Source of the DNA: Streptococcus parauberis NCFD 2020
GTDB lineage: Bacteria > Bacillota > Bacilli > Lactobacillales > Streptococcaceae
Direction: 5' to 3'
Assembly: GCF_000187935.1 (NCBI RefSeq)
Contig: NZ_AEUT02000001.1
Span: 1,826,001 to 1,890,000 of the forward strand
Length of the DNA stretch: 64,000 bases
The first letter of the stretch is position 1; the number at the start of each line of letters is the position of its first letter. The notes under the pieces are model-generated. The model was not told the origin of the DNA. It saw only the letters and a list, made by a program, of their open reading frames with translations, and did not search any database. Of this stretch, positions 24,648 to 63,575 are shown in pieces. The position numbers and the translations under genes were made by a program.

Positions 24648-24809
24648 AAAAAAGACAAAGTATAGAAACCTTGTCTTTTCAATTATACCGGCGGTCGGGG
24701 TCGAACCGACACGTCCGTGAGGCACTGGATTTTGAGTGCTACCAAGCACTTTTTAAAGATACCAAACCTTGATTTAACAAGGTTTGAGTTTTGGAAATCA
24801 ACTTAAAAA
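24648..24809. repeat. Degenerate tRNA-Leu attachment site A (outermost left end)
   Basis: 24648-24737 resembles the 3' half of the tRNA-Leu(CAA) gene plus its terminator, ending at TTTTGAGT in the anticodon region. 24738-24809 then matches, base for base over 72 bp, the element-end sequence that follows site B at 47585. The tRNA part has several substitutions and a one-base loss (GAGGCAC for GAGGACAC), so it is older than site B. Not a functional tRNA: the 5' half is absent. The rest of 24591-25149 holds no gene I can support. Confidence 0.85.
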
Positions 24810-26828: not shown

Positions 26829-28658
26829 TCAATCATCTTTTTCTTGAAACCACTTAAGAGGGTAATAGCCCGGTTTTATCTTTTTATTTGTCATTTTATA
26901 TACATTTGCTTTAAATGTATAGTGATTATTTAAAAGAAAAATACCATCATAATTCTTAATAGTCTTTTCAAACTTTTCCTCAGATGTCATAAAATCAAAT
27001 TTAACATCAACCTTGGAATTCCACAATTGATATCTCGAATAATAACTTAAAAAATAGTTATCAACTAATTCTTTGTTATCAGAAACTATCAAAAATTTCC
27101 CTTTCCCATAGTCTTTTTCTTTGGATAGTTTCTTTAGGATTATTTGATCTTTTGACTGTAGCATATTTTGTTTGATTATACCATTTGTATCAGATATCAC
27201 AAAACCTAGAAAGACAACGATTGCAAGAAGTGTCGCATTCTCGTAAATATTTTTATTTTTAAAATTTTTGAATGATCTATTATCTCTTTTGGAATAATTT
27301 TTCTCATAAAAAAGGTCATCTAATTGTCTAACTCCCTGTATGATAAACATAAAGAAATTAATAACAATGATTGTCAAAATATACCTTTCAAAACCAGCAA
27401 TTCTTTTTGCTTCCTCAACTGGCATTGCAGTAAGATACATTATTAAATTTCCAAAATAATAAAGAAATGTAATTAGTACGTTGGCCCAAAAAACCATTAT
27501 ATTAGTTTTCCAAGTCTTAAACTTTATTCCAATAACAAGACTAAATAATAGAAAAGAAGAAAAAATAACGATAATTTGAAGAGATGTGAGTGTGTGAATT
27601 GAGAATACCGTTTTTAGATAATTATTTAGTATAAGCTGCTGATTGATAGATAGCCTTCCCTCGAACACACTTGTGATTGGGCCAGCTGCAAAATCATGTT
27701 TTTTGCTAGCCATACCAGCAAAAACACTTTTCACATGAACTGACCATAATTGATTAAAAATAATTGGCAGTAGTAAAAGTAAGCTACTTAAATAGAGCTT
27801 AATATTTTTTTCATGTCTATTCTTTCTAATAAAAACACCTAGGTAAGCAATAATAATACATATTACAAAAAATAAAGCACTAGCTTTGACAAGAACTAAA
27901 AATGATAAAATAATAGAAATGAAAAACGATATTTGCAGAAAATTATTTTTCTGCAAATATAAGACCGAAATTGCTGAAATTGCCAAAATAGCAATTAATA
28001 AATCTACTAATAAATTATTAAATCTAATAGAAAAGTTTAAGTAAGTCATTACTCCCAAACTCGCAAAAATGATCGCATTCGGTAACAGCCTTCGATGATC
28101 TTTTACGACTCCAAAAATTGAGAACTGTGCGGCTGCGATTATTAAAAACTGACCAACCAGCATAATTCCTTCACTGAAGCCTACATATTTCGTTATATAA
28201 TATAAATACAATGAGCTCCCAACTGGATAAGTATTATATGATATAATACGATCTGCAACAGCCGGTAGTCTATCTTCTAGAAACAAGAATTTTACAATCG
28301 TAGCCCAATGAGTAAAATTATCATAATGCAAAAGTGATTGATTCCATAATGCTGCTATATAAACACCAACATAAAACAACATCCCAAAGGTAACAAAGTT
28401 TAAACGGTTTAAAAGATTTCCAATTGTTAATCCTTTTGCTTTCACAATACTAAAAATAAACAACAAAATACCTAGAAAATAAATCATTAAAGAAGCAGGA
28501 AATAAGAAATTTACTAATGAAGATAAATAAAGGATTACAACTTGACAACTAATGACAACTATATATATATGATATTTCGAAATACTGGTCATTAATCTAA
28601 TGAAACTTGTATATCCAACTAAAGAAACTATAAAAAATATAAACTTAATGATTTCCAT
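26829..28658 (-). CDS. Polytopic membrane protein, probable GT-C glycosyltransferase
   Basis: 609 residues with roughly a dozen hydrophobic helices in the first 490 and a soluble C-terminal domain of about 120 residues. The first large loop has WNQSLLHYDNFTHWA, an acidic motif placed where GT-C enzymes keep their catalytic acid. I do not recognise a named family. The gene overlaps the PilZ synthase by 14 bases, and a GT2-GtrA fusion lies just upstream. GT2 + GtrA flippase + GT-C is a known three-part extracytoplasmic glycosylation scheme, so decoration of the polymer made by the neighbouring synthase is the best inference. Last gene of the locus. Confidence 0.6.
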   Translation of the reverse strand: MEIIKFIFFIVSLVGYTSFIRLMTSISKYHIYIVVISCQVVILYLSSLVNFLFPASLMIYFLGILLFIFSIVKAKGLTIGNLLNRLNFVTFGMLFYVGVYIAALWNQSLLHYDNFTHWATIVKFLFLEDRLPAVADRIISYNTYPVGSSLYLYYITKYVGFSEGIMLVGQFLIIAAAQFSIFGVVKDHRRLLPNAIIFASLGVMTYLNFSIRFNNLLVDLLIAILAISAISVLYLQKNNFLQISFFISIILSFLVLVKASALFFVICIIIAYLGVFIRKNRHEKNIKLYLSSLLLLLPIIFNQLWSVHVKSVFAGMASKKHDFAAGPITSVFEGRLSINQQLILNNYLKTVFSIHTLTSLQIIVIFSSFLLFSLVIGIKFKTWKTNIMVFWANVLITFLYYFGNLIMYLTAMPVEEAKRIAGFERYILTIIVINFFMFIIQGVRQLDDLFYEKNYSKRDNRSFKNFKNKNIYENATLLAIVVFLGFVISDTNGIIKQNMLQSKDQIILKKLSKEKDYGKGKFLIVSDNKELVDNYFLSYYSRYQLWNSKVDVKFDFMTSEEKFEKTIKNYDGIFLLNNHYTFKANVYKMTNKKIKPGYYPLKWFQEKDD

Positions 28659-30864
28659 TTACACTCCCCATATATAATTCGTTATAAAATCTTTGCATTC
28701 CTCCATTTGCTTTCTCTTCAAAACTTACAACATTATAACATACCAATTGATTAGAAGGGCTGATCATTTTTTTCTGAAGATTAAGTCTGATATCTGAATT
28801 ATCGAAAGTAATATAATCTTTTGGTGTTAACTGAGAATCATAACTCAATTCAATTTCACTAACATTAAATTTAGTTATTCGCATTGGTTCACTATTAAGA
28901 GATACTGGAAAATTTGTTGAAATTTCTGGAAACATGGTATTCCCTCTGGAACTTACTAAATTGTAATTCGTCATTAAATGTAATCGTTGAATTAAATTAT
29001 TATACAGATCATCCCAAATAGTAACCCAATTATCACGTACCTCAGTTAAATATTTATTGGAACGGTCATAGATATAGTAGAAATAAGCCTTTTTATTCTT
29101 ATTGTCTAAATCAACTATTTTAATTCCGTATAGCCATTTTCCCTTTTTACTCACAACTCTTGTAAGTTGACCTTTTATATCAAATTCATATTCACCATCA
29201 TATAATGATATTTGCATACTATCCCTTATGTAAAGCGGTTTTGAACTAACAAACGATAAACCATGTTCAGAAACATCCACAATTTGAATATTTTCTTGCA
29301 GTCCACCAACTGTTAAATTTGCATTTTCTTTAACCAAAAATCTCTCTTCTTTTCTAAAAATAGGTCTTCCTAAAGTCGAAAAAAGAGCAAAAGTTAAATT
29401 TATTAAATGATGCAACAACCAAAAGCTAATCACTGAACCATAAAATAGTTCCGATCCATATTTTCCAATATTAAAACTAATTAATCCATATAAAGATAAA
29501 ATCCATAAAATTAAATATGGTAAGGCGAAAAGATAGTCAAAATTACGATTACTTACTGATTTAGAGGTTACTTTAAATTTTTTTTCACTAATCCCGATTG
29601 ACTCTAAAAAAATAGGGATAACAAGATATGGGGCAAAGACTGTTTCTACTATTTCCCCCCAAGTTTGCGTACGGTAACTATCTGTCACATCTCTCATGGC
29701 TAACTTCGTTAAAATATAGGATGGCAACCAAAAAATTAATAGTAGCCAGACATTAGCTTTTACAATTCTAATATGGAATACAGTGTAAAGTATCGGAGCA
29801 ATAATATAGACTAATCTTCTAAAAAAAGAACTCCAATAAAAATAGCCATTTATATAGATCATTCTTTGTCCCAAAGTTAACTTTGGATTAAAAAAGATAT
29901 TTACATTATAACTACTTTTAATAACTCCTCTTCCCCACCTTATCCTTTGTTTAATGACACTTCTTAGGTCTGTTGGTGTTAAACCGCTTGCCATAGGTTT
30001 TGTGGTTGAATAATTGAGATAACCAGCAATATTCATTCTTACTCCGAGTTCAAAATCTTCTGTTATGGTTTGAGTAGGAAATCCACCAGCATCTTCAATT
30101 GCTTTTCTTCTCAATAATGTATTTGATCCAGTATAAACAGATGCTCCACGTGTATTATTAAGTACATTTACACTTTTTGAAAAAAAGTCCTGCTCATTTG
30201 GAAGTTTATCCTCGGAATAAAAATGAAATTGGAAAATATCTGGATTATAAAAACTCTGCGGTGTTTGAATTAATCCAATCGGCTTAGAGTCTCCTCGGTC
30301 TTTTAAAAAATAAGGGACAGTCTCTAATAAAAAATCTTTGTAGGGAATCATATCTGCATCAAATGTTGCAATATAAGGTGAGTTGGTCAGACTAAGTGCA
30401 TTATTTAGATTTCCTGATTTTGCGTGCTTATTATTTTCTAATCCAAAATAACCAACAGAAAACTCTTCAGCAAGTTTTTTAATTTCTGGACGATTTGTAT
30501 CATCTGCAATATAAATATGTACTTTAGACTTATCAGGATAATTCATTCTTACACAAGCATTCACTGTTTTGTACAAAATCTCGTAATCTTCGTTATGAGT
30601 TGCAATAAACACATCAATATCAGGTAAGTTTTCCTGTGTCATAACACCTTTTTCTAAATTAACTTCCTTACTTTTATTAACAATTAAAACAAAAGCTGTA
30701 AAAAAGGACGTCAGTTCACTAAACCATAGAATCAAACCTGAAATATATGAAAAATGTGAATCTTCCCAAGGTATTGTAAAAAATAATCTCCAAAATAAAT
30801 AAAGAACACTAGTAAGAAAGGCAAAAAAATATAGGATTTTATTAATTTTTGAATTTTTTAACAA
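28645..30864 (-). CDS. BcsA-like processive glycan synthase with C-terminal PilZ domain
   Basis: 739 residues from a TTG at 30864 (LLKNSKINK), chosen because GGAG lies 7-8 bases upstream and this gives a 23-base overlap with the preceding gene. N-terminal membrane helices, then a GT2 domain: IADDTN, HAKSGNLN, DAD at 169-171, TED at 268-270, QRIRW at 306-310. More helices follow. The PilZ domain has both c-di-GMP-binding motifs, RKEER (504-508) and DVSEHG (530-535). This is the architecture of cellulose and related beta-glucan synthases, which c-di-GMP activates. No BcsB/BcsC are expected in a Gram-positive. The polymer (cellulose, mixed-linkage glucan or other) cannot be told from sequence. 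Confidence 0.88.
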   Translation of the reverse strand: MLKNSKINKILYFFAFLTSVLYLFWRLFFTIPWEDSHFSYISGLILWFSELTSFFTAFVLIVNKSKEVNLEKGVMTQENLPDIDVFIATHNEDYEILYKTVNACVRMNYPDKSKVHIYIADDTNRPEIKKLAEEFSVGYFGLENNKHAKSGNLNNALSLTNSPYIATFDADMIPYKDFLLETVPYFLKDRGDSKPIGLIQTPQSFYNPDIFQFHFYSEDKLPNEQDFFSKSVNVLNNTRGASVYTGSNTLLRRKAIEDAGGFPTQTITEDFELGVRMNIAGYLNYSTTKPMASGLTPTDLRSVIKQRIRWGRGVIKSSYNVNIFFNPKLTLGQRMIYINGYFYWSSFFRRLVYIIAPILYTVFHIRIVKANVWLLLIFWLPSYILTKLAMRDVTDSYRTQTWGEIVETVFAPYLVIPIFLESIGISEKKFKVTSKSVSNRNFDYLFALPYLILWILSLYGLISFNIGKYGSELFYGSVISFWLLHHLINLTFALFSTLGRPIFRKEERFLVKENANLTVGGLQENIQIVDVSEHGLSFVSSKPLYIRDSMQISLYDGEYEFDIKGQLTRVVSKKGKWLYGIKIVDLDNKNKKAYFYYIYDRSNKYLTEVRDNWVTIWDDLYNNLIQRLHLMTNYNLVSSRGNTMFPEISTNFPVSLNSEPMRITKFNVSEIELSYDSQLTPKDYITFDNSDIRLNLQKKMISPSNQLVCYNVVSFEEKANGGMQRFYNELYMGSVNGNH

Positions 30865-31921
30865 TTTGATTCTCCGATTTTTTTGTAAAAATATATTTTT
30901 TTTGAATTTGATAACTGAAAATAAATAAAAATACATCAACCAATATTTTCACAAGTGTTAAATTAAATTGAGGGAGTACCTTGTTAATAATGGTTACAAA
31001 AGATGCTGACATTGTAATTTGAATTATCACCAGTAAAAAATACTTAATTAAGCTTGTTTTATCTCCTTTTTTAAATACAAATGCTTTATTCATGAAGAAA
31101 TTAAAGAGAGAAGAAATAAATCGAGATAAAAATGAAGCCAAAAATATAGTATTGATGCTGAAGTTTCTTAGAAGAAATATAAGAAATGCAAAAACTGAGA
31201 TATCGACAATAAATGAACTAGAAGAGGATATGATAAATTTTAAAAAGGTTGAATAGATTTTAAGTGAATCCTTAATAGGATTAAAATGTGATGAGTTATT
31301 TTCATCAATATAAATCGTATCAATTGGTACTTCTACAATTCTGATATTGTTCTCTTTTAAAAATAAAAGCATTTGCATCTCATATTCATAACGCTCACCA
31401 TTTAGTTCCAATAATTTGTTTAAGTATTGCACTGGAATAACACGTAAGCCTGTTTGAGTGTCTGAAATATTAAGTCCCATTGAAAAACTTAAAATATCTC
31501 TTGTCATAAGATTTCCAAACTTACTTCTTAATGGCACATTATCTTCAAAATTACGGGAACCTAATACGACTGGTTTTAATTTATTATTTGTTTCATAAGA
31601 TTTCAAACACCTTACTGTATCTCTTATGGTATGCTGACCATCACCATCAATTGTAACTACTGCATCTATAAAATCTAGTTTCTTCAAAATATATGTAAAA
31701 CCAGTCTTTAGAGCATACCCTTTTCCTCTATTTTCTTGATATGTGATAAAGTGTACATTCTTCTCTATCTCTGAGAAAATTTTCTTATAACCACTACCAC
31801 TTCCATCATCAATGACAATAATTGGACATTTTTTTAAATAATCATCCACTATTAATGTATTTATTAATTCTATTAATTTAAAATCCGGTTGATAACTTGG
31901 TATTAATATAGCGAAATTCAT
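30842..31921 (-). CDS. GT2 family glycosyltransferase fused to GtrA domain
   Basis: 359 residues. Residues 1-225 are a dolichol-phosphate-mannose-synthase-like GT2: VIDDGSGSG, ENRGKGYALKTG, and TIDGDGQH as the DxD motif. Residues 230-350 form a four-helix GtrA-type membrane domain ending in QIQKKYIFTKK. Expected role: charge undecaprenyl phosphate with a sugar and help flip it outward. GGAGAAG precedes the ATG. A 216-base gap with its own promoter-like sequence separates it from the upstream EAL gene, so it may head a second transcript with the PilZ synthase and the GT-C-like protein. Confidence 0.87.
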   Translation of the reverse strand: MNFAILIPSYQPDFKLIELINTLIVDDYLKKCPIIVIDDGSGSGYKKIFSEIEKNVHFITYQENRGKGYALKTGFTYILKKLDFIDAVVTIDGDGQHTIRDTVRCLKSYETNNKLKPVVLGSRNFEDNVPLRSKFGNLMTRDILSFSMGLNISDTQTGLRVIPVQYLNKLLELNGERYEYEMQMLLFLKENNIRIVEVPIDTIYIDENNSSHFNPIKDSLKIYSTFLKFIISSSSSFIVDISVFAFLIFLLRNFSINTIFLASFLSRFISSLFNFFMNKAFVFKKGDKTSLIKYFLLVIIQITMSASFVTIINKVLPQFNLTLVKILVDVFLFIFSYQIQKKYIFTKKSENQIVKKFKN

Positions 31922-32137
31922 CTAATAACTTCTCCAGTTTATTTATTAACTGAGTACATACATACTTTATAAAAAGAAATAATCATAACTCAAGTAAATA
32001 TTGTAATATTTAATGTAAAAACTATCTGCTAAAATTTCGTAGTCTATTATTGATATACATCGATAGATTTTTTTAATTTCAAATATCCTTCGACTATAAA
32101 CTTTCTTGTATTAAGTAAGAATAACTGAAATATCTAT
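31922..32137 (-). promoter_or_regulatory. AT-rich intergenic region with probable internal promoter
   Basis: On the minus strand TTGAGT, 16 bases, TATAAA lies about 35-60 bases upstream of the GT2-GtrA start. An inverted repeat CTATtATTGAT / ATCgATAG (32044-32066) followed by a T-run on the plus strand lies further up. No c-di-GMP riboswitch consensus is visible. Confidence 0.4.
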
Positions 32138-32938
32138 TTAGTTTTCCTTGAGGTGTGGTTTTCCAATGTAATAACCTTGGCGGTTAGACATATCTAATTG
32201 ATCTGCTAAAGACATATCTTCTGTAGACTCAATCTCAGTTAAATCAATACTTATTTGATTTAACTGACTTAGTCTCACCCAGTCACCTATGTTCTTAAAA
32301 TACCATTCTTCATCATTTTTCTTTTGAAATTTGGACAATGGTATTTTAAGCCCAGACACCAGTTTCAGATATTTTTTAACCTTTTGATAATAGTTTTTGT
32401 CTGGACTTATTTGTTCCAAGATGACTTCTACGCCTAAGTCTTTACTTACTTTTAAATTCTTTTTCAGGCGCCAGCTGGTCCAAGGGCTAATAAATTGAGT
32501 TGAAGCAATATGAAATTCTATACGGACTTTCATTGGGTAAATGGCCCCTTTTAACCATTTGATAAAGTAGACATAACGAGGATCAACCAGTTGTTTTAAG
32601 CTAATATTGATAGCTAGAAAACCATTAGGGTATTCCTTTTTTAGTAGACTTTTATGAAGTAGGTAGATAACTTCACGTAGTGTAAAATGATCAATGTCTT
32701 CTGGTAAAGACCAGTTCTTATTTTCTTCATTATATTTCCTAAGTAGGGCTTCAAAGCCACTTACCCGACCATCTCTATCTATAATTTTCTGAAAATGAAA
32801 TGAGTAATTTTTGATATTTTTCATAGTTTTTGGGTAGATAGCATTTTGTCTTTTGGCCCCAATATAACTAATCAAAATTGTAACAATACTAACTATAGTA
32901 AAAATAATTGCAATGAGTAACAAGATTTCAATAAGCAT
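32138..32938 (-). CDS. Membrane-anchored degenerate EAL-domain protein
   Basis: 266 residues: one N-terminal membrane helix (about 4-26), then an EAL domain. GFEALLRK keeps the EAL glutamate, AINISL the metal-binding Asn, and RQGYYIGKP the C-terminal Gln. The DDF motif is replaced (VILEQISP) and the glutamate of the usual EITE motif has no clear counterpart. Loss of the two metal-binding aspartates argues against hydrolysis, so this is more likely a c-di-GMP receptor than a phosphodiesterase. It starts four bases after the pgaC-like gene. Confidence 0.82.
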   Translation of the reverse strand: MLIEILLLIAIIFTIVSIVTILISYIGAKRQNAIYPKTMKNIKNYSFHFQKIIDRDGRVSGFEALLRKYNEENKNWSLPEDIDHFTLREVIYLLHKSLLKKEYPNGFLAINISLKQLVDPRYVYFIKWLKGAIYPMKVRIEFHIASTQFISPWTSWRLKKNLKVSKDLGVEVILEQISPDKNYYQKVKKYLKLVSGLKIPLSKFQKKNDEEWYFKNIGDWVRLSQLNQISIDLTEIESTEDMSLADQLDMSNRQGYYIGKPHLKEN

Positions 32939-32942
32939 CTTT

Positions 32943-34280
32943 TTATTCCTTCTTTAAGCTTTTTCGTGTAGGACTAACCCAAGCTCCATAATCTGTCTCT
33001 TTTCCTAGAAAGGCTCTTACTGCTGGTAGGAAAGTTGTTACGATAGTTAAAGGATTAATCATCCAGAAAAAAATCATATATAATGGTGAAAAAATAAAAT
33101 ACTTTAACTTTTCACCCTTACTGTCTAAAATAAGTGCAGCTAATAATTGAAGACAACCTGCCACCAATTCAAATGTAACAAAAATAAATGACATTATTAC
33201 AGCATGCCAAACTCTTTCAAAATTGCTAGTTGCCAAAAAGTAAGTGAGAGTTACTATGAAAACAAATGAAGAGATAAAAAAGAAGAAAGACCAGATAATT
33301 GAAAATGTCGTATCAACAAACATCGAAAAAACATAACGGTATTTGATTGGATGTTTGATAAACATACTAAAGTTGGTCAGCCATACTTCTGTACCTCCTT
33401 GTGCCCACCGTTGTCTCTGTTTATAAAGTTGTGACAAGGTCTCTGGCACATTCATATGGAAAATAATATCAGGGGCAAATCGAGGCACAATTCCAAACAT
33501 CAAGTGATCCCAAGCAATACTAATATCTTCTGTACTTCTGTCCTGACGAAACCCAGCAACATTAATTAAAAATTCTTTTTTATACATGGTATTAGCGCCA
33601 CTATAAGCATACATAGAATCATTGACCGCCGTCTGACTACGTTTAATAACGCCAACAATACTAGAAAACTCAACTGTTTGTGATTTCCCTAAAAGTGTAC
33701 TCCTATTTTGCACATCCATATTGGCCGTAACAGCTGCCGTATTGACATCTTTATCACTCATAAAATAGTTCATATATTTCATTAAAGCATCCGGTTCGGG
33801 AATGGTATCTGCATCGTTACTCAAAATATACTCCCCCTTTGCAAAGAAAAGACCTAAATTAAAGCCATGTGCCTTACCCTGGTTTTTTTGAATATTGAGA
33901 ACCCGTAACTTGTCATATTTTTCTTGTAATTTTTTTAAAATGTCCAGTGTAGCATCTTTACTGCCATCATTGATGACCAATATTTCGTAGTTAGTATAGT
34001 TTATTTGCGTGGCTAAATAATCGATTGTCTCTTCAATCATAACTTCTTCATTATGAGCAGGAATCATGATTGTAATCATTGGTTGGTCTTGAGGACTTAA
34101 GAACTGGAAATCATTTTCTTTTTTATCTTTTTTTAGAAATTTATAGCTTAAGGCTCCAAAAAACCAGAATAAGGCACCAATTACAGGATATAGACACAAA
34201 ATTAAGAATAAAATCAAAATAATATTATAAAGAAAATTTTCGGTTAAGGATAAATTATTAAAAATGGTATCGTTAATCAT
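32943..34280 (-). CDS. PgaC/IcaA-like poly-beta-1,6-N-acetylglucosamine synthase
   Basis: 445-residue processive GT2 with N- and C-terminal membrane helices. Motifs in order: VINDGSKDAT, DAD at 156-158 (SNDADTIPEPDA), TED at 250-252, QRQRW at 288-292. The pattern RSTEDISIAW and the length match PgaC/IcaA/HmsR. UDP-GlcNAc is the family's donor. It starts three bases after the PgaD-like gene with AAGGAG upstream. In E. coli, PgaC-PgaD together bind c-di-GMP; the GGDEF/EAL neighbours suggest the same control here. No PgaB/IcaB deacetylase or IcaC is in the window. Confidence 0.87.
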   Translation of the reverse strand: MINDTIFNNLSLTENFLYNIILILFLILCLYPVIGALFWFFGALSYKFLKKDKKENDFQFLSPQDQPMITIMIPAHNEEVMIEETIDYLATQINYTNYEILVINDGSKDATLDILKKLQEKYDKLRVLNIQKNQGKAHGFNLGLFFAKGEYILSNDADTIPEPDALMKYMNYFMSDKDVNTAAVTANMDVQNRSTLLGKSQTVEFSSIVGVIKRSQTAVNDSMYAYSGANTMYKKEFLINVAGFRQDRSTEDISIAWDHLMFGIVPRFAPDIIFHMNVPETLSQLYKQRQRWAQGGTEVWLTNFSMFIKHPIKYRYVFSMFVDTTFSIIWSFFFFISSFVFIVTLTYFLATSNFERVWHAVIMSFIFVTFELVAGCLQLLAALILDSKGEKLKYFIFSPLYMIFFWMINPLTIVTTFLPAVRAFLGKETDYGAWVSPTRKSLKKE

Positions 34281-34283
34281 TGT

Positions 34284-34784
34284 TTACTCCTTATTGTTGA
34301 TAACATTAGCCAACTCATTATTCGCTAAGTTTTTCTCTGGCATAACATCATAATATCGAACATTAATCCGATAATCTTCCTTACCAAATCTATCTTCCAT
34401 AAATTGGGAAGCTTTCTTTTGCCTTTCAATGCTTGAAACTGAATCATAGGTTGGCCATTTTTCAACAAAAGATTCTCTACGGTTATTTTGAACGATTGTC
34501 ATTGTGACAGTATAGATCATTGTCATAAAAGCAGCAAAAATGAACAAAACAATTAAAAAGCTAACTAATTTGATCCCTTCTTGATAACTCCAAATTCCCC
34601 AACCAAGTTGATGCTGTGACACAAAGAATATGTAACTACTGACAGTGATAAATGTTGGTAGGATAAAAAAAAACCATCCAAAGAGGGCGTAGAATGTTTG
34701 TTTTATCTTTAACAGATAATGCCCCTCTTCAAAAAATGAATCTGTATAAGCATAGGTTACTTCTTTTTTTTTCATTTTTTCCAT
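34284..34784 (-). CDS. PgaD-like two-helix membrane protein
   Basis: 166 residues with two strong hydrophobic segments (about 33-53 and 72-95) and a basic/acidic C-terminal tail. Size, topology and position directly before the pgaC-like synthase match PgaD/HmsS, the small partner needed for c-di-GMP-dependent PNAG synthesis. Sequence similarity by eye is weak, so the call rests mostly on topology and context. AAGGAAA precedes the ATG. Confidence 0.6.
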   Translation of the reverse strand: MEKMKKKEVTYAYTDSFFEEGHYLLKIKQTFYALFGWFFFILPTFITVSSYIFFVSQHQLGWGIWSYQEGIKLVSFLIVLFIFAAFMTMIYTVTMTIVQNNRRESFVEKWPTYDSVSSIERQKKASQFMEDRFGKEDYRINVRYYDVMPEKNLANNELANVINNKE

Positions 34785-34818
34785 CGTATTTCCTTTTCTA
34801 AAATTGCATTTTTGATAA

Positions 34819-35532
34819 TTATTGATTTAATCTTAAGACTTTAGGAGATTTATTACCCTTGCCCCAATAAAATCCTTGCTGTAATGAGATCCCAATTTTT
34901 TGCAACATTTTCGATTTTTTGCGACTGTCTACTCTTTCCACAACAATTGCAATCTCTCTTTCAGATACAAGTTTTAACCATTTTGTATAGCACACCAGTA
35001 GAAGAATATAAAACAGTGAAAAAGTCCCCGTTAGGCTGATTTTGATGCGATCATAATAGTCTTTATATTTAATATAAAGCAAACAAGTATTAATTTCTTC
35101 CGTAAAATCATCTATGGCAATCGTAAAATGATAAGCTTTTAAGGTTCTTAAAATGTCAGTAAGACTGTCCATCAGCTCAGGTTTATGGCGAGGGCGATGT
35201 TCTGTAATTTCAATAATTAAGCGATCAGAAAATGAACTTACTCGATCAAAGAAAAAAGTAGTTGCTGAAAATTGAAATTGATCAATATCAAAATTTAGTG
35301 AAAAGATAGTCTTAGGATTTTCCTCTAACACCTTAAGAATCTCAATTTGAAACCACTGAAAAAAGTTCTGGTATTTTACCTCGTTTGAGAGAATCTCACA
35401 GAATAACTGGGTCGGAAATTGGTCCTTCTCAGTCGATCTGAGCAGCACTTCATATTCCTCTACGATTATTGAATTTCTTTTTTCGACTTTAACAATCGGT
35501 TGGAAGATCAAATATAATTGGTCTAATGACAT
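34819..35532 (-). CDS. EAL-domain c-di-GMP phosphodiesterase
   Basis: 237 residues, a stand-alone cytoplasmic EAL domain. The signature is YEVLLR (EVL at 28-30), followed by SLNFDI (Asn), IIEITEH (Glu), IAIDDF (Asp-Asp), DRIKISL (Lys), VVERVDS (Glu) and QGFYWGK (Gln). All the metal- and base-binding positions of the active family are present, so hydrolysis of c-di-GMP to pGpG is likely. It lies between the GGDEF gene and the PgaD-like gene and is probably cotranscribed with both. Confidence 0.88.
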   Translation of the reverse strand: MSLDQLYLIFQPIVKVEKRNSIIVEEYEVLLRSTEKDQFPTQLFCEILSNEVKYQNFFQWFQIEILKVLEENPKTIFSLNFDIDQFQFSATTFFFDRVSSFSDRLIIEITEHRPRHKPELMDSLTDILRTLKAYHFTIAIDDFTEEINTCLLYIKYKDYYDRIKISLTGTFSLFYILLLVCYTKWLKLVSEREIAIVVERVDSRKKSKMLQKIGISLQQGFYWGKGNKSPKVLRLNQ

Positions 35533-35605
35533 TCTTTTCCTTTATCTTTCTTTTAGTATGAAGCAATGAATCATTTCCTCATTGATATTCGTTTAACTGA
35601 ATGTA

Positions 35606-36682
35606 TTAGGATAAAGACAGATGAACTCTCTTTTGTGAATTCTTGTGGTTGTACATCTCTTTATCTGCTTGATCCAAAAAGTATATTAAGTCATTACTTG
35701 CAGTATTTTCTGCAAAAACTTTACCAAACGACACAGAGACACCATATTTTTCAAAGTCATCCATGCGCATTTTAATATTGGATTGAATTCCGACAACATC
35801 TTGATAAGTTACATCTGGAATCAGGACACTAAACTCATCTCCACCTATCCGAGAGATGATAGCCTCAGATGGAAATTCCATCTTTAAAATATTTGCAAAA
35901 TCAATTAATAATTGATCTCCTATTTTATGACCAAACTGATCATTAGATTGTTTGAAATTATCTAAATCAAAGACAAAAATCCAGGTTGATTGATTATTTT
36001 TTTGGATTTGGTCTTTGTAATAATCTACCATTTTCCGACGATTAAAGACATTTGTTAACGGGTCCTGATAAATGAGTTCCCTATACTTTTCTTTCTCTTT
36101 GACTTGATCGGAGACATTCATAGTAATACAACAGATGGCATAAGTCTGTCCTCTTCTATTTTTCACTGGTGAATAAGAGGTATAAAGATAAATAGTTTCA
36201 CCATTGTAGTTGAAAGAATCTTGGGAGGTTTGAAAACCTGAAAACAAGGCCTGTTTACAATTTTCTTTCAATAACTGCATATGATTTTCAGATAAATACT
36301 TGGATACACTGTCTCCTTTTTTTGGACTTACCTGATAATACTTTTCCATAAAGTTGATGTTGGATTGATTTAGGTATAAAAATTGATAGTTTAAATCAAT
36401 AATGTAAAGATTGACATTATCGAGGACTTCAAAACTATCTTGAAACAAGGTCTTTTCATTTTCATAAGCTTCAAAGTAGGAGAGAATCCGTTTAACTTCA
36501 AAGAAGATAAAATAAAGCACAAAACCTGCAACCAGAAGATAGATCAGAGTTGATTGATCCCAATCTTTTGTTTCTAGATAGAGAAGTGTGCAAAAAATTA
36601 TGAACAATAGCAAAAATTGCCCATAAATGGTTGTTAATATTTTTCTTCGATAATTCTTAGGGACTATATTTTTTTTAAACAT
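35606..36682 (-). CDS. Membrane PAS-GGDEF diguanylate cyclase
   Basis: 358 residues from the ATG at 36682 (MFKKNIVPK); a TTG four codons earlier is the alternative. Two membrane helices (about 18-37 and 46-62) are followed by a PAS domain (about 85-195) and a GGDEF domain with YQDPLTNVFNRR, FDLDNFKQSND and RIGGDEF (280-284). The active-site motif is intact, while the RxxD inhibitory site expected nine residues earlier is absent (PSEA instead). The enzyme should make c-di-GMP without product inhibition. First gene of the polysaccharide locus, so it sets the signal for the synthases downstream. Confidence 0.93.
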   Translation of the reverse strand: MFKKNIVPKNYRRKILTTIYGQFLLLFIIFCTLLYLETKDWDQSTLIYLLVAGFVLYFIFFEVKRILSYFEAYENEKTLFQDSFEVLDNVNLYIIDLNYQFLYLNQSNINFMEKYYQVSPKKGDSVSKYLSENHMQLLKENCKQALFSGFQTSQDSFNYNGETIYLYTSYSPVKNRRGQTYAICCITMNVSDQVKEKEKYRELIYQDPLTNVFNRRKMVDYYKDQIQKNNQSTWIFVFDLDNFKQSNDQFGHKIGDQLLIDFANILKMEFPSEAIISRIGGDEFSVLIPDVTYQDVVGIQSNIKMRMDDFEKYGVSVSFGKVFAENTASNDLIYFLDQADKEMYNHKNSQKRVHLSLS

Positions 36683-36887
36683 ACTTTTTTCCAATAAATG
36701 GTCTTATTTTTTCAATTTTTAATAATAGATACAATTCTTAGTATAACCCATTTTTATAAAAAAGCTAGCTATATTTTGACCACTTTGTTAAAATTTCAAA
36801 ATTTTATGTTTTATGATAATAAATTAAGCTAAAATACTGATTTACTAACATTCTGCTAGGGCTATTTTTTTTATTTTGTCACATAAT

Positions 36888-36946: not shown

Positions 36947-38377
36947 TTATCCTAGCAATCGTTTAAAATTCTGCTCATAGGCTACTGTATAGTGTTTATA
37001 ATTTTCTTGATTAGGATAGTATTCTTGATCCTGTCTTTGACTTATGTAGCTTTGACCTAAAGCTTCTTTTGTTAGTATATAGGCTGCTCGACATCCCACT
37101 TCTTTTTCGTCCGATTGAACAATGATTTTACCACTAATATCGGCTAAAAGTTCAATAAAGAGTTGAGTTTGGAAAAGGCCTCCGCTGACATAAAGGGTGT
37201 CGACAGGGTAGTGTTTCTCAATACTTTCTAAAATCATTCTGAGGTTATAGAAGAGACCCTCTATACAAGCACGAGCAAAGTGAGATTTCTGGTGAGTGAA
37301 GGACAGATTATGGAAAGCCCCTCTGGTTTCAGAGTCCCATAGAGGTGCCCTTTCACCGCCAAGATAAGGTAGGAAACAAAGATTATTTGCTCCAATTGGT
37401 GTCGCTTCTATATCTTGGAAGATAGATTCTAAAGCTTGCCCTTGGTAAAAGGTTTTGTGTAGCCATTCCAGGATATTACCACCTGAATTGCTTGGGCCAC
37501 CAATGACCCAAAGGCCTTTTTTGACGGCATAGGTAAAGAGACTGCCACTTTCTTCTACTTGCAAATCTTGCGATAAGAGGCGAACAGCTGATGAGGTGCC
37601 AATTGTAATAACAGCAGCATTTTCAGCCATTTGGCCAATACCTAAATTTGCCATCGGTCCATCCCCTGCTCCATATATAAAGCGGGTCTCCGAAGTCATG
37701 CCATTTAAGCCTTGAAAAACAGCTGGCAGACATTGAACAAAGTCTAGAGAATCCTTAATTTCTGGCAAAAGAGCAGGCGAAATCTCAAGATAATTAAGAA
37801 TCTTCTGATCCCAGGTCCCTTGCTGCAGATTTACTAAACCAGTCCCCGTCGCTGAGGAAATATCAATAGCATTAACAGCAAAAAGCCGATAGAAGAGATA
37901 GTCCTTGATTCCCATCAGATGAGCAGTTTGGACCATTAAGTCTGGCTTTTCACTTTGAAAATACTTGATTTTTGCCAACCAACTCATAGGGTGAATCGGC
38001 GTCCCAGAAGTGGTCATAAATACCCGTCCCACTTCTGAGTCCTTAATCGCTTCCGCAGCAGCTTTGGCTCGGGTATCAGCCCAGGTTATAGAAGGCGTTA
38101 GCAGAGAATAAGCTTGGTCTAAAAGAATTAAGGAGTGCATCTGGCAAGAAAAAGCCACCGCATCAATTTTATCTTCAGCTTTCAAACTAGTGCAGACTTC
38201 CTGAATCAGTTGAACCAATCCCTGATAAATAGCTTCAGGATCTTGCTCGGCTTGCCCTTGGTCACCTCGTAGCAAGTAGTTTGCTCGACTGTGGGCAGAA
38301 ATAGCCTGGCCATCGTTTTGGTAGAGAATCCCTTTTGTTGCTGTTGTCCCAATATCAATGCCCAAAATATAATTCAT
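36947..38377 (-). CDS. gntK: FGGY-family gluconokinase
   Basis: 476 residues. The ATP-binding start GIDIGTTATKGILYQNDG, the GntK-like stretches MSWLAKIKYF and SWVIGGP-type (LWVIGGPSNSGGNILEWL), and LGGERAPLWDSETRG match FGGY gluconokinases such as Bacillus GntK closely in order and spacing. The reaction is gluconate + ATP to 6-phosphogluconate. Last gene of the PTS operon, 13 bases after a GH1 gene. Together with the 6-phosphogluconate dehydrogenase gene it gives a complete route from gluconate to ribulose 5-phosphate. Xylulokinase-type activity is the main alternative. Confidence 0.85.
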   Translation of the reverse strand: MNYILGIDIGTTATKGILYQNDGQAISAHSRANYLLRGDQGQAEQDPEAIYQGLVQLIQEVCTSLKAEDKIDAVAFSCQMHSLILLDQAYSLLTPSITWADTRAKAAAEAIKDSEVGRVFMTTSGTPIHPMSWLAKIKYFQSEKPDLMVQTAHLMGIKDYLFYRLFAVNAIDISSATGTGLVNLQQGTWDQKILNYLEISPALLPEIKDSLDFVQCLPAVFQGLNGMTSETRFIYGAGDGPMANLGIGQMAENAAVITIGTSSAVRLLSQDLQVEESGSLFTYAVKKGLWVIGGPSNSGGNILEWLHKTFYQGQALESIFQDIEATPIGANNLCFLPYLGGERAPLWDSETRGAFHNLSFTHQKSHFARACIEGLFYNLRMILESIEKHYPVDTLYVSGGLFQTQLFIELLADISGKIIVQSDEKEVGCRAAYILTKEALGQSYISQRQDQEYYPNQENYKHYTVAYEQNFKRLLG

Positions 38378-38390
38378 AGCGCTGCTCTTT

Positions 38391-39827
<1,437 letters not shown>

Positions 39828-40727
39828 CTATTTTCTAGTCACATCATGACCGCCAAAGCCATTTCGTAAGGCTGCCAAAACTTTTCCGGTTACTGTGTCA
39901 TCTTGCAATGAGCGGTTACGCATCATCAATGAAAGGGCGATAACTGGTGCAGGAACCTCTAAATCAAGACTTTCCTCAACAGTCCATTTGCCTTCGCCAG
40001 ATGCTTGAACCCGGCCGATGATATTTTCTAAATGTGGATCTTTAGCAAATTCTTGTTCAGCTAATTCCATTAGCCATCCGCGAATAACTGAACCGTGATT
40101 CCAAAGTTTAGCCACTTTTTCAAAGTCATAGTCAAAAGGACTAGCATCTAATATTTCAAAGCCTTCAGCAATAGCCTGCATCATGCCATATTCAATCCCA
40201 TTGTGGATCATTTTTAAATAATGACCACTACCAACGCGTCCAGTATAGAGGTAGCCATCTTCTTGAGCCAAAGCAGCAATAATTGGTTCTACAATAGGCC
40301 AAGCCTCTTGGTCGCCACCAATCATAAAGTTAGCACCATTGCGGGCACCAGACATGCCACCTGAAGTTCCCGCATCGAAGTAATAAAGACCTGCTTGATG
40401 TGCTACTTCAGCTTGTTTTAAATTATCTTTATAATTAGAATTGCCACCATCGATAATAATATCTTTGGCATCTAAATGTTCAATTAAATAATCAATGGTT
40501 TCATTTGTAATTTGTCCAGAAGGTAGCATGACCCAAACAATACGTGGAGTCGGCAAAGTAGCAATCATGTCATCAATACTTGCTACAGGTAAAATTTTTT
40601 CTGAATAGTCAGCTGCTGTTTTAACAGCTTCTTGGTTAATATCATACACTGCTAGTTCTTGACCATGGTCAACGGCGTTAAATGATAAATTCAAGCCCAT
40701 TTTCCCTAATCCAATAATTCCAAACAT
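39828..40727 (-). CDS. gnd: 6-phosphogluconate dehydrogenase, short (GntZ-like) form
   Basis: 299 residues from the ATG at 40727 (MFGIIGLGKMG), preceded by AAAGAGG; further upstream in-frame starts lie in a hairpin region. NAD(P) loop GLGKMGLNLS, IIDGGNSNYKDN, GTSGGMSGARNGANFMIGG and the catalytic-lysine region HYLKMIHNGIEYGMMQA. About 300 residues marks the short form, often NAD-linked, rather than the 470-residue housekeeping enzyme. It converts 6-phosphogluconate to ribulose 5-phosphate and CO2. In this operon it should serve gluconate released from the imported sugar. Confidence 0.92.
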   Translation of the reverse strand: MFGIIGLGKMGLNLSFNAVDHGQELAVYDINQEAVKTAADYSEKILPVASIDDMIATLPTPRIVWVMLPSGQITNETIDYLIEHLDAKDIIIDGGNSNYKDNLKQAEVAHQAGLYYFDAGTSGGMSGARNGANFMIGGDQEAWPIVEPIIAALAQEDGYLYTGRVGSGHYLKMIHNGIEYGMMQAIAEGFEILDASPFDYDFEKVAKLWNHGSVIRGWLMELAEQEFAKDPHLENIIGRVQASGEGKWTVEESLDLEVPAPVIALSLMMRNRSLQDDTVTGKVLAALRNGFGGHDVTRK

Positions 40728-40752
40728 ATAATCCTCTTTCCTTTTAAAAAAA

Positions 40753-40784
40753 CAAATTGCGCCCAACAGGATGTGCGCAATTTG
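40753..40784 (-). terminator. Intra-operon terminator or attenuator between GH1 and gnd
   Basis: Perfect 10-bp stem CAAATTGCGC / GCGCAATTTG with a 12-base loop. On the minus strand it is followed by a seven-base T-run. Two more short repeats (GACTG/CAGTC) precede it at 40795-40832 and could form a competing hairpin. Confidence 0.65.
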
Positions 40785-40842
40785 ATTACTATTTGACTGG
40801 TCAGCTTTTTCATCTGACTGGCTAACAGTCAATCAAAATCCT

Positions 40843-42252
40843 TCACATTTTGTTCTCTAACTCAAATGACTGATTTTCAATTACTGATTTAAACCAGTAA
40901 GCTGATTTTTTTAAACTTCTTTTCTTATCATTTTCAAGATCAATCGAAACCAAACCATATCGATTTTTAAAAGCATTCATCGGTGAGACACAGTCAGTAA
41001 AGGCCCAGAGCATATAGCCCTCACATTTAGAACCTTCTTCAACCCCTCGAAGAAGATGGTAAAGATGTTGACTAATGTAGTCAATGCGGTACTGGTCATC
41101 AATCATACCTGATTGATTTTTGAATCGATCTTCATCTTCCTGTCCCATTCCGTTTTCCGCAATAAACCAAGGAATATCAGGATAGTTACGATTCATATAA
41201 AGTGATAAGTCATACATAATTTGAGGATAAATTTCCCAACCGCGTGATTGATTCATCTGGCGACCAGGTAACTGAAAATCCTCATAGTATTTTTCTGGAT
41301 GGAAGTGTTCACCTTCTCTCCAAGCAAATCGTTGTGATTTCACACGCTTTGGATAATATTGATTTAAACCAACAAAATCAAGCCTGTTTGTGGAGATTAG
41401 CGCAAGCTCTTCTTCCGTTGGATCAAAATAAATATCATTTTCTTTGCAGAGCTCAATCAATTCCTCAGGATAAGACCCTTTAATCATTGGGTCTAAGAAG
41501 ACCCGATTGTAAAATAAGTCATAGCGTCTAGCCGCATCAAGGTCTTCTTGAGAACTTGATCTAGGATAAACCATTTCCGGATTAATGATACAGCCAATCC
41601 GTCCTGAATAGCCGCCTTCATGGAAAATCTTAACAACTTTAGCAGTGGCTAAAACCTTATGGTAGTTCCAAAGCATCCATTTTTTAGAATTTCTTTCATG
41701 TGGCCATCTAATAGCATCCAGATAGCAGCGGGTTTGACTAACAATTGGCTCATTAAAGGTAATCCAATCCTGAACCCGATCACCATAGCGTTGAAAAAGG
41801 ACTTGCGCGTATTGAACAAATAAGTCAACAACTTTTTTGCTAGACCAAGCATCATATTTTTCCATTAACTGATAGGGAACTTCATAATGTTCCAAACAGA
41901 TAATTGGTTTGACCCCAATGGCTACCAACCCATTAATGACAGCGTCAATATGACTAGCATAATCCTCATCGACAATCAGATTTTCATAATCGATAAAGAA
42001 ACGAGACCAATTGATGGAGGTGCGATAATGACTAATCCCAATTTCTGACATTAAGTCTAAATCATCTTGATACATTTCCATAAAATTGGTAGCTACTTGT
42101 GGGCCCTGCCCTTGATGCCAAACAAAGGGTTCTTCTTGAAACCATTTATCTAAGAAGGAATCTTGACCTGGTTTTTTACCAATCCAACCCTCTGTTTGCC
42201 ATGCTGAAGTGGCAGCACCCAGAATAAAATTTTCTGGGATCTTTATTTTCAT
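40843..42252 (-). CDS. GH1 6-phospho-beta-glycosidase (first copy)
   Basis: 469 residues. FILGAATSAWQTEGW at the N-terminus, acid/base Glu in TFNEPIV, nucleophile Glu in FIAENGMG, and CEGYMLWAFTDCVSPMNAFKNRYG near the end. GH1 enzymes next to lactose/cellobiose-type PTS genes hydrolyse the 6-phosphorylated disaccharide after uptake. It begins ten bases after the EIIC stop, so it is cotranscribed with the transporter. Confidence 0.92.
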   Translation of the reverse strand: MKIKIPENFILGAATSAWQTEGWIGKKPGQDSFLDKWFQEEPFVWHQGQGPQVATNFMEMYQDDLDLMSEIGISHYRTSINWSRFFIDYENLIVDEDYASHIDAVINGLVAIGVKPIICLEHYEVPYQLMEKYDAWSSKKVVDLFVQYAQVLFQRYGDRVQDWITFNEPIVSQTRCYLDAIRWPHERNSKKWMLWNYHKVLATAKVVKIFHEGGYSGRIGCIINPEMVYPRSSSQEDLDAARRYDLFYNRVFLDPMIKGSYPEELIELCKENDIYFDPTEEELALISTNRLDFVGLNQYYPKRVKSQRFAWREGEHFHPEKYYEDFQLPGRQMNQSRGWEIYPQIMYDLSLYMNRNYPDIPWFIAENGMGQEDEDRFKNQSGMIDDQYRIDYISQHLYHLLRGVEEGSKCEGYMLWAFTDCVSPMNAFKNRYGLVSIDLENDKKRSLKKSAYWFKSVIENQSFELENKM

Positions 42253-42261
42253 AAGTTGTCC

Positions 42262-43572
42262 TTAGTTTTGTGCAAGTTGTTCTTTATTTGCAATTTTAAC
42301 AAATGGTAGGTAAATCAGAATTGAGACAACAATACAGATGGCTTGAGTTGCTACAGCACCCCAGTCACCAGCAGTTGCAAGGTATCCATTGATTAATGGT
42401 GGTGTTGGCCATGGAACCATTACAGCAGCTTTAGCAGCAAAACCCACTGCTGTTGCAAAGTATCCGATAGTACCAGTTACTAATGGAGTTATAATAAATG
42501 GAATTGCTAAGATTGGGTTAAGCATGATTGGCATACCAAAGATAACTGGTTCGTTGATATTGAAGATACTTGGACCAATTGATAATTTAGTGATTTCTTT
42601 CATATCATCACGTTTACCAACCAAGAAGATTGATACTAATAGACCAATAGTTACACCTGAACCACCCATACTCATATACATATCCCAGAAAGGCATAGTG
42701 ATAATATTTGGAAGTTCTTTCCCAGCTTGGAAAGCTTCAGTATTGACAGCAATTGCAGCAAGTAACAACGGTTCGCGGATTGGTTTAACCATTTGGTTAC
42801 CGTGGATACCGATTACCCAGAAGACTTGAGCAACAAAGACAAGTAATAAGATACCAGGTAAACCTTGAACAACACCTTCTAAAGGTTTTTGAACAATGTT
42901 ATAGATAATATCGTAAGCATAAAGACCAGTAATGGCTTTGATAATGAAACCGCCAGTAGCAATTGTTGCTACAGTAATAACTGTAGGAAATAACGCTGAG
43001 AAACTTTTAGCAACACTTGGTGGAACAGTGTCCGGCATTTTAATTTGTAATTTATCTTGGCGGTTTAACCAACAGAATAATTCGATGGCTAAAACAGCAA
43101 CAATCATTCCCAAGAAAAGACCTTTTGTATCAGTATATTGTTTTGCTAAAGCATTTGAAACCATAACTGATTTTTGATCTTCAGTGATAAATTCGAAGAT
43201 GGTTGGGTTTACTGATAGGTAACTCATAACGGCTACAATACCTGCAAATACATTGTTTTGGTTATTAAGTTTTGATAATTCAATACCCATTAAGAAAACA
43301 ACGTAAATGGTTAAGAAACTTAAGGTTACATACGAAATAGCAGAAGAAATTGGTTGTAAATCTGCTAAGAAACGTAAAGCTTCAAATCTGGCTAAACCAG
43401 TTTCAGCATTGAAAACCATTGCTGAGAACAAGGTCCCAAAGGCACCCGTGATGATAACTGGAATCAAGGCTGCAAAAGCATTCTTAATTACAATGATGTA
43501 TCTGAGAGAGTTTACCCAGTTGGCAAAGCCTCCCAAGACTGTCGTCATTTTGTCTAAAAATGAATTTCCCAT
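42262..43572 (-). CDS. PTS lactose/cellobiose-family EIIC permease
   Basis: 436-residue membrane permease of the Lac/Cel PTS family with about ten helices. Family stretches include IIVIKNAFAALIPVIITGAF near the start and INEPVIFGMPIMLNPILAIP near residue 330 (substrate region). It works with the separate EIIB and EIIA proteins encoded just upstream and with general HPr/EI, which are not in the window. The substrate is inferred from the downstream genes: a beta-disaccharide whose aglycone is gluconate. Confidence 0.93.
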   Translation of the reverse strand: MGNSFLDKMTTVLGGFANWVNSLRYIIVIKNAFAALIPVIITGAFGTLFSAMVFNAETGLARFEALRFLADLQPISSAISYVTLSFLTIYVVFLMGIELSKLNNQNNVFAGIVAVMSYLSVNPTIFEFITEDQKSVMVSNALAKQYTDTKGLFLGMIVAVLAIELFCWLNRQDKLQIKMPDTVPPSVAKSFSALFPTVITVATIATGGFIIKAITGLYAYDIIYNIVQKPLEGVVQGLPGILLLVFVAQVFWVIGIHGNQMVKPIREPLLLAAIAVNTEAFQAGKELPNIITMPFWDMYMSMGGSGVTIGLLVSIFLVGKRDDMKEITKLSIGPSIFNINEPVIFGMPIMLNPILAIPFIITPLVTGTIGYFATAVGFAAKAAVMVPWPTPPLINGYLATAGDWGAVATQAICIVVSILIYLPFVKIANKEQLAQN

Positions 43573-43581
43573 TTTTTTCTC

Positions 43582-43890
43582 CTAAAACTTTTTATAAATA
43601 TCAATAACTTCTCTTGCTAAATCAAGGAAGGTAATTGCAGTCATTAAGTGATCTTGACTATGAACTAAAAGCAATGAAAAAGTTGTCATCTCACCGTTTG
43701 CTTCTTTGGTGAGCAGTGCTGTTTGTGCCTTATGAGCTTCAGCAATCTCCTGATCAGCTTCCTTCATTTTCAAGGCTGCTTCTTCATGTCTACCTTCTTT
43801 AACTATGGCAATGGCTTCCATGGCTGAAGATTTAGCATTCCCAGCATGGATTATGAGACTCATTGAGCTTTCTAAATCTTTCTGTTCCAT
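43582..43890 (-). CDS. PTS lactose/cellobiose-family EIIA
   Basis: 102 residues, a helical Lac-type EIIA. The phosphorylated histidine lies in LLLVHSQDHLMTA (about residues 74-85), and SLIIHAGNAKSSAMEAI is the typical first helix. It passes phosphate from HPr to the EIIB encoded upstream. Ten bases before EIIC and eleven after EIIB. Confidence 0.94.
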   Translation of the reverse strand: MEQKDLESSMSLIIHAGNAKSSAMEAIAIVKEGRHEEAALKMKEADQEIAEAHKAQTALLTKEANGEMTTFSLLLVHSQDHLMTAITFLDLAREVIDIYKKF

Positions 43891-43901
43891 ATTGCCTCCA
43901 C

Positions 43902-44222: not shown

Positions 44223-44254
44223 GGTAAAAGTCCTTTCACTTTTTTATAGTTTAA

Positions 44255-44312
44255 TGATAGCGCTATCTTTTAGAGACTACCATAACTCTTTTTACCGTAG
44301 ACTAACGGTAAA
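44255..44312 (-). promoter_or_regulatory. Control region of the PTS operon: cre site and inverted repeat
   Basis: TGATAGCGCTATCT at 44255-44268 matches the CcpA cre consensus TGWNANCGNTNWCA at all but one base and contains a 12-base perfect palindrome. Farther up, TTTACCGT / ACGGTAAA (44291-44312, six-base gap) is a good candidate operator for the PRD regulator encoded upstream. A weak -10-like TATAAA follows on the minus strand near 44246. Confidence 0.65.
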
Positions 44313-44348
44313 AGGGCAAAAGAAAAAACCAAATCCTGAGAAATGGCT

Positions 44349-46208: not shown

Positions 46209-46269
46209 ATTTGCTTTCCTCCATACAGGATAGTCCTTGGCCAAGCAAGCTGCTGATGAATCGACAAAA

Positions 46270-63553: not shown

Positions 63554-63575
63554 ATTTAAAATTTTCATTTAAAAA

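Follow-up and report, generated by a model that had tools for sequence, protein, structure and literature searches.

Gene content of the locus

We analyzed a 64,000-nucleotide stretch of the Streptococcus parauberis NCFD 2020 genome (contig NZ_AEUT02000001.1, positions 1,826,001 to 1,890,000 of the forward strand), hereafter the window, which holds a set of genes for cyclic-di-GMP (c-di-GMP) signaling and polysaccharide synthesis. A preliminary description of this DNA had reported eight collinear genes with the corresponding domains, and the list of open reading frames (ORFs) bears this out, with eight complete, collinear, and intact ORFs on the minus strand at 26829-36694. In gene order, they encode a PAS-GGDEF diguanylate cyclase, an EAL protein, a PgaD-like protein, a PgaC-like protein, a degenerate EAL protein (dEAL), a GT2-GtrA protein, a BcsA-PilZ protein, and a 609-aa membrane protein. 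The right end had been set at 36682, where an ATG is the likely start of the cyclase, though the ORF itself extends to a TTG at 36694. Gaps among the first five genes measure 73, 34, 3, and 4 bp and are followed by one of 216 bp (31922..32137) that separates two synthase blocks. Beyond it, the GT2-GtrA and BcsA genes overlap by 98 bp, or by 23 bp with BcsA read from its likely start, the TTG at 30864, and the BcsA and 609-aa protein genes by 14 bp. This spacing would fit one or two transcripts.

Pfam curated cut-offs served as the threshold for domain calls unless an E-value is given, and motif positions in the cyclase, EAL, dEAL, and BcsA-PilZ proteins are given their customary roles. The predicted GGDEF, EAL, PilZ, GT2, and GtrA domains all scored above their Pfam cut-offs, while the PgaC and BcsA calls stayed under the TIGR equivalog cut-offs. 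Profile matches this strong in adjoining genes are not chance.

The cyclase (35606..36694) begins with two transmembrane (TM)-like stretches by hydropathy, followed by PAS_4 (23.4 bits, cut-off 23.1) and GGDEF (99.6 bits) domains. Its active-site motif reads RIGGDEF, intact as had been described, with no RxxD just upstream. The two EAL proteins of the locus score 61.5 and 43.7 bits, both above cut-off. The first is a predicted EAL-only phosphodiesterase (34819..35532), for which alignment to PDB 3kzp confirmed the reported full set of catalytic positions, namely EVLLR (E28), N80, E108, D141-D142, K164, E199, and Q219. The usual loop-6 motif is absent, as it is from Lactobacillus acidophilus PdeA, which is reported to be active in the account of that protein in PMC6123363.

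The next three genes form a PgaD-PgaC-dEAL trio. The PgaD/GtsA-like protein (34284..34784; 166 aa, two TM-like stretches) has only a sub-threshold Pfam match (12.1 bits) and is 53% identical over 159 aa to a Lactococcus petauri protein encoded upstream of the PgaC-like gene of that species. It would be the two-TM partner of the PgaC/GtsB-like GT2 polysaccharide synthase (32943..34280), which was called from homologue identity and a TIGR03937 score. The third protein, dEAL (32138..32938), is a putative c-di-GMP receptor of the PdeB type, membrane-anchored at its N-terminus by hydropathy and model. It deserves the name degenerate that it had been given, since EQ replaces its metal-binding Asp pair (EK in some relatives). 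E63 (within EALLR), N111, E141, K198, and Q254 are kept, and EALLR, N111, K198, and Q254 are conserved in ten aligned relatives. An AlphaFold2 model from 10 sequences (mean predicted local distance difference test score, 79.6; predicted template modeling score, 0.71) shows a single long helix at the N-terminus, after which strands and helices alternate.

The second block opens with a Dpm1-GtrA-type GT2-GtrA protein (30842..31921; PF00535 and PF04138 above cut-off), a putative polyprenyl-phosphate sugar synthase. The BcsA-like synthase (28645..30939) has a C-terminal PilZ domain (38.2 bits, above cut-off). It carries DAD, TED, QRIRW, FKVT (gating loop), and DVSEHG, in line with the customary BcsA list of DxD, TED, QxxRW, gating-loop, and PilZ motifs. 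Both PilZ motifs had been claimed; DVSEHG and the domain match stand, while the R-box can be read as either RPIFR or RKEER. The last gene (26829..28658) encodes the 609-aa polytopic membrane protein, with ten hydrophobic stretches in a simple hydropathy profile, some of them long enough for two helices. This protein has no Pfam match and 112 homologues among the matches listed, and a PDB profile search with its family gave a single meaningless match (E 0.41). Its hydropathy and genomic partners suggest a putative GT-C-type glycosyltransferase.

Control by a c-di-GMP riboswitch was rejected, as only six tRNAs reach Rfam gathering scores in the window. Promoter-like sites (54 vs a shuffle mean of 60.6) and terminator-like sites (5 vs 3.6) were close to shuffles, and PADLOC returned nothing for the five proteins examined.

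Rarity in the genome, genus, and family

The genome is a single 2.16-Mb contig, and its one GGDEF, two EAL, and one PilZ matches all sit in the locus, which supports the self-contained circuit that had been proposed. For comparison, we used a genus sample of 284 Streptococcus genomes (one per species, the window's included) and a family sample of 335, made up of these and 51 others, some of them incomplete. The rarity that had been claimed for such genes in the genus is evident for each component. GGDEF was found over cut-off in 14/284 genomes (16 at E up to 0.001), EAL in 3/284 (5 at E up to 0.001), PilZ in 11/284, and the PgaD-PgaC-dEAL trio in 1/284, with none in the 283 other Streptococcus genomes; the trio as a genus-wide trait was thus rejected. 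All 284 have some GT2-type match to the PgaC-like protein, the best one outside the window's genome reaching 30% identity and 165.6 bits vs 998.9 for the protein itself.

GGDEF, EAL, and PilZ occur together only in the window's genome and in genome G151, where an insert carrying an IS3-type transposase interrupts the BcsA gene, and 11 of the 14 GGDEF-positive genomes lack an EAL match over cut-off. The other 12 comprise eight in which the genes for cyclase, GT2-GtrA, BcsA-PilZ, and membrane protein are all intact (loci L028-L032, L034, L035, and L038), two with broken cassettes (G082 and G231), one cut by a contig end (G003), and one with cyclases and no cassette (G051). The eight intact loci combine a cyclase and a PilZ synthase with no EAL match over cut-off, in a search that did not include HD-GYP.

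In the family sample, the dEAL profile matched seven genomes at E up to 0.001, six of them strongly (at least 290 bits): the window's, four of genus g6 (Lactococcus), and one of g7. The trio is present in 4 of the 51 non-Streptococcus genomes, and G301 has a cyclase and a truncated dEAL gene with no PgaD/PgaC match in the 19.9 kb fetched. None of the five dEAL-strong genomes outside Streptococcus had a BcsA cassette at E up to 1e-30; BcsA matches were found in 7 of the 51, with the best, at 59%, in G300. Trio and BcsA cassette occur together in the window's genome only, among all 335. In a sample of the order, dEAL matched 19 of 183 genomes (own included) at E up to 0.001, with none but its own above 93.3 bits. 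Among public contigs, the dEAL cluster, with a 99%-identical representative, is found on 335, vs 7 for the cluster that holds the 609-aa protein.

Relationships of the two modules to known systems

c-di-GMP in streptococci has already been published (Liu et al. 2020, ACS Infect Dis, via PMC10333796). As summarized in PMC10333796, the streptococcal module comprises a diguanylate cyclase, a Dpm1-GtrA protein, a cellulose-synthase-like protein, and a multi-TM protein, with tRNA-Ser and trmB-rimP as its setting. Going by that summary, our locus is alike in its PAS-GGDEF, GT2-GtrA, BcsA-PilZ, and polytopic membrane proteins, and unlike it in lying at tRNA-Leu, not between trmB and rimP, and in adding an EAL phosphodiesterase and the trio. 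Nine other fetched loci have a TrmB-type family beside the cyclase, and eight of these also a RimP family (blastp clusters, Pfam-checked on L031 only; tRNA-Ser was not looked for). Membership of our locus in the trmB-rimP module was rejected, the window's site being tRNA-Leu.

The BcsA protein is 57-61% identical over 614-700 aa to those of other streptococcal loci, 68% over 543 aa to that of G151, and 65% to the broken G082 copy over a 367-aa fragment; values for GT2-GtrA are 46-63%, and the 609-aa protein is 56% identical to its G151 counterpart. Homologues labelled Streptococcus uberis are closer still (BcsA, 91%; 609-aa protein, 82%), and S. uberis strains may share the composite, going by the public-contig counts for the dEAL cluster (335) and the 609-aa protein cluster (7); in the S. 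uberis literature, the c-di-GMP mentions in the relevant text of PMC8138050 concern Staphylococcus aureus. A similar cassette of GT2-GtrA, BcsA-like (47%), and large membrane protein genes is carried by Levilactobacillus brevis KB290 plasmid pKB290-1 with, unlike the window, no cyclase or EAL gene listed in a 17.9-kb stretch whose gene table is incomplete. This is presumably the plasmid glycosyltransferase operon of Fukao et al. 2019.

The trio has its relatives among lactic acid bacteria. In L. acidophilus La-14, dgcA-pdeA and gtsA-gtsB-pdeB include a dEAL receptor, and c-di-GMP binding by PdeB, PdeA activity, and exopolysaccharide effects are reported in the sections of He et al. 2018 (PMC6123363) that concern them. 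As described there, the EAL-only PdeA, two-TM GtsA, PgaC-like GtsB, and anchored dEAL protein PdeB are like those of the window. Differences from the same description are that DgcA has a five-helix N-terminus, where the window's cyclase has two TM-like stretches and PAS, and that L. acidophilus has no sequence-predictable c-di-GMP receptor besides PdeB and so no BcsA-PilZ protein, which the window has. Trio proteins in Lactococcus and Lactovum loci are 74-79% (PgaC), 52-55% (PgaD), and 55-57% (dEAL) identical, and dEAL is 61-63% identical to Weissella/Leuconostoc-type proteins, with a value of 62% for homologues labelled Weissella soli and Leuconostoc lactis. On a Limosilactobacillus reuteri plasmid, a GGDEF gene is divergent from a row of PgaD-like (37%), PgaC-like (64%), and EAL (26%) genes, in the same order of synthase partner, synthase, and EAL as in the window. 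In those loci of Lactococcus, Lactovum, and L. reuteri that were read, the dEAL gene adjoins PgaC, and in G386 it precedes the PgaD/PgaC pair. In Escherichia coli, c-di-GMP binds PgaC and PgaD, according to the relevant lines of PMC10519070; the window is like E. coli in having a GT2 synthase and a small two-TM partner, and unlike it in having a separate dEAL gene and a synthase that misses the TIGR03937 cut-off.

We then considered to which module the cyclase belongs. PAS_4 is present in the cyclases of the window, G151, and L031 (a trmB-rimP locus), and absent from the trio-side cyclases scanned, those of L. petauri and L. reuteri. In a 17-row tree, which left out the broken G082 and G231 cyclases, the window's cyclase joins that of G151 (support 100/99), and both fall inside a group of Bcs-cassette cyclases (99/99; one G051 cyclase without a cassette included), separate from the cyclases that adjoin the trio in Lactococcus and in L. 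reuteri. In G151, the BcsA cassette is followed by the cyclase and EAL genes, and the trio of Lactococcus taiwanensis has no cyclase match in the 20 kb fetched, though there is one in another cluster of this genome (G314). That second cluster (L090, G314:C6) has cyclase, EAL, dEAL-like (28%), and PgaC-like (25%) matches. Because of the PAS_4 domain, the tree grouping, the G151 gene order, and the cyclase-less L. taiwanensis trio, the trio seems to have joined a PAS-GGDEF/EAL/BcsA set and to have come without its usual neighbor, a multi-TM cyclase.

A probable tRNA-Leu island

An intact tRNA-Leu(CAA), the putative integration site, lies at 63469..63554 (minus strand; ARAGORN). Partial copies of its 3' end, both on the minus strand, are found at 47489..47584 (94/96 positions identical to 63427-63522) and 24666..24737 (67/73 aligned positions identical to the tRNA site), and they delimit segment A (24.7-47.5 kb, 22.8 kb), with the c-di-GMP locus and a sugar operon, and segment B (47.6-63.4 kb). 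The segments share a terminal sequence, an 87-nt exact repeat at 24723..24809 and 47570-47656. Compared without gaps to the 73-nt tRNA end, bases 1-60000 gave a best match of 73, vs a best of 39 across 50 mononucleotide shuffles. There is no integrase among the listed ORFs of segment A; segment B encodes a tyrosine integrase (61056..62189, plus strand; PF00589, 88.7 bits) and a plasmid-type replication protein (59442..60788, plus strand; PF01719 and PF00910 above cut-off).

Among five relatives fetched at length, the tRNA array of the window was found in G163 and G010 and not in G152, G275, or G016. In G163, the same array ends in tRNA-Leu 0.95 kb from a pyridoxamine-oxidase-like gene, vs 38.9 kb in the window, a near-empty site seen in this one genome. 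In G010, ~2.9 kb with transporter-like genes (ORFs read by eye) separates the tRNA from a second repeat. Judged by its flank, G152 is the nearest genome (94.4% over ~10.7 kb), and it lacks both a GGDEF match and a close PgaC; it has a repeat beside the pyridoxamine-oxidase-like gene, with no tRNA in view on a contig that ends near the site. Of 30 short loci round the flanking gene (L092-L121, own included), G163 alone had the array, and one other had a different tRNA-Leu.

The gain by transfer that had been suggested earlier is supported because of the tRNA-Leu repeats and the near-empty G163 site. A cis-mobilizable element is one with attL/attR and no recombinase, and segment A, with att-like repeats at the tRNA 3' end and no integrase between them, is of this description. 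The two tandem segments look like site accretion with a cis-mobilizable passenger, and the integrase of element B, its neighbor, may have moved segment A. The G+C content of the locus (29.9%) was not used as proof of transfer; 138 other same-length stretches of the window span 29.4-39.0%.

The sugar operon of segment A (36947..46319, minus strand) was called from scans as an FGGY kinase, two GH1-type ORFs (the second, at 40843-42252, named by eye), a 6-phosphogluconate dehydrogenase, a lactose/cellobiose-type phosphotransferase system, and a PRD regulator. IS3-family transposase remnants with terminal-repeat-like ends (23787-24035 and ~25792-26656) flank a PepSY lipoprotein gene. Element B also encodes an LPXTG surface protein with Collagen_bind, Cna_B, and FctA-type domains (47905-50085), and between the integrase and the tRNA-Leu lies a gene for a 381-aa Asn-rich protein with no Pfam or PADLOC match (62254-63399).

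Discussion

The locus is real, intact, rare, and mobile-looking. The preliminary description had treated it as one unit of an unknown kind; it is instead a new combination of two published parts, which we read as a streptococcal-type PAS-GGDEF/EAL/BcsA set joined to a lactic-acid-bacterial PgaD-PgaC-dEAL trio. A search of the open-access literature found no such composite in print.

Given what was observed here, namely the genes and their motifs, the lack of such domains elsewhere in the genome, the relationships of the modules, and the repeats, we think it probable that this is a laterally acquired composite c-di-GMP operon in which a single membrane cyclase controls two exopolysaccharide synthases, both gated by c-di-GMP, via two receptor types. 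The enzyme activities, receptor binding, polymer identity, mobility, and order of assembly in this scheme are predictions. The membrane PAS-GGDEF protein would make c-di-GMP and the EAL protein would degrade it, with the messenger acting locally. PilZ on the BcsA-like synthase would relieve the gating loop and so start a cellulose-like polymer, onto which the 609-aa protein may add a sugar supplied by GT2-GtrA as its polyprenyl phosphate. On the model proposed for PdeB-GtsA/GtsB, membrane-anchored dEAL would be a binding, non-hydrolyzing receptor through which c-di-GMP activates the PgaC/PgaD-like pair. Since the trio would have joined the PAS-GGDEF/EAL/BcsA set without its own cyclase, one cyclase would serve both synthases; the integrase-less segment that houses the whole locus is bounded by tRNA-Leu repeats. 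What we propose for receptors and polymers is modeled on the published passages on L. acidophilus PdeB and the streptococcal module (PMC10333796) and on the motifs; a biofilm or exopolysaccharide output is likewise suggested by homologues.

Several points weigh against this composite, two-synthase operon. The PgaC-like protein scores 314.8 bits against a TIGR03937 equivalog cut-off of 422.3, and the BcsA-like protein 363.4 against 699.1 for TIGR03030; the same cut-offs are also missed by the PgaC homologues of L. petauri (304.8) and L. reuteri (295.8) and by the BcsA homologue of L031 (337.3). Several branches of the cyclase tree are long, for which the treekit warning is of possible long-branch joins. 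dEAL shares just 26% identity with its positional counterpart in L. reuteri, and likeness to L. acidophilus was judged from a published description, not from sequence. The G+C content at third codon positions drops between the first five genes (29-32%) and the last three (20-23%), a split that would weakly group the cyclase and EAL genes with the trio, not with BcsA; we give it less weight because 13 nearby chromosomal-side ORFs span 21-42%.

The composite could also have been assembled in another genus, such as a Lactovum-like one, and have arrived whole, with no grafting in Streptococcus. For homologues of dEAL (57%), BcsA (61%), and the 609-aa protein (39%) labelled Lactovum miscens, the longest contig is one and the same, of 97,395 bp, which would allow for an origin of the composite elsewhere. 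In G300, of the Lactococcus genus (g6), a BcsA cassette is accompanied by a cyclase from the same tree group and by an adjoining EAL match. However, the L. miscens-labelled BcsA and 609-aa proteins, on a contig not itself viewed, are more distant than those of G151, L. miscens DSM 14925 has no BcsA-cassette match, and the window's dEAL is nearer to the Weissella/Leuconostoc type than to that of Lactovum/Lactococcus. We regard an origin of this kind as unlikely, if worth keeping in mind.

We are more doubtful still that c-di-GMP controls BcsA-PilZ only, with dEAL as a scaffold and the PgaC/PgaD-like pair regulated otherwise. Such a role would suit the lost Asp pair, the report of binding for the L. 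acidophilus protein only (by description, in PMC6123363), and the L. taiwanensis trio with no cyclase match nearby, but not the positions kept across dEAL relatives or the way its gene stays beside those of the synthase pair. That the locus is silent or decaying cargo is improbable: broken relatives (the cassette in G082, G231, and G151, the trio in G301), the adjacent IS3-family remnants, and the missing integrase speak for it, while all eight ORFs are intact and the dEAL cluster is widespread among public contigs.

Returning to the two-synthase operon, it is tempting, though we would not quite commit to it, to see output modules as plug-in parts: a synthase pair with its dEAL receptor would have moved cyclase-less into a locus with an unrelated cyclase, the second messenger being the sole interface, and given the only two-output circuit among the 284 Streptococcus genomes, carried by a tRNA-Leu segment potentially movable by a neighboring integrase. 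As a single-cyclase genome with one source, one sink, two receptor types, and two synthases, this strain makes local c-di-GMP wiring cleanly testable, and it is a rare streptococcal case with a dedicated c-di-GMP breaker. It would show how horizontal transfer gives a signaling circuit a further output, here in a genus for which c-di-AMP is the messenger usually discussed.

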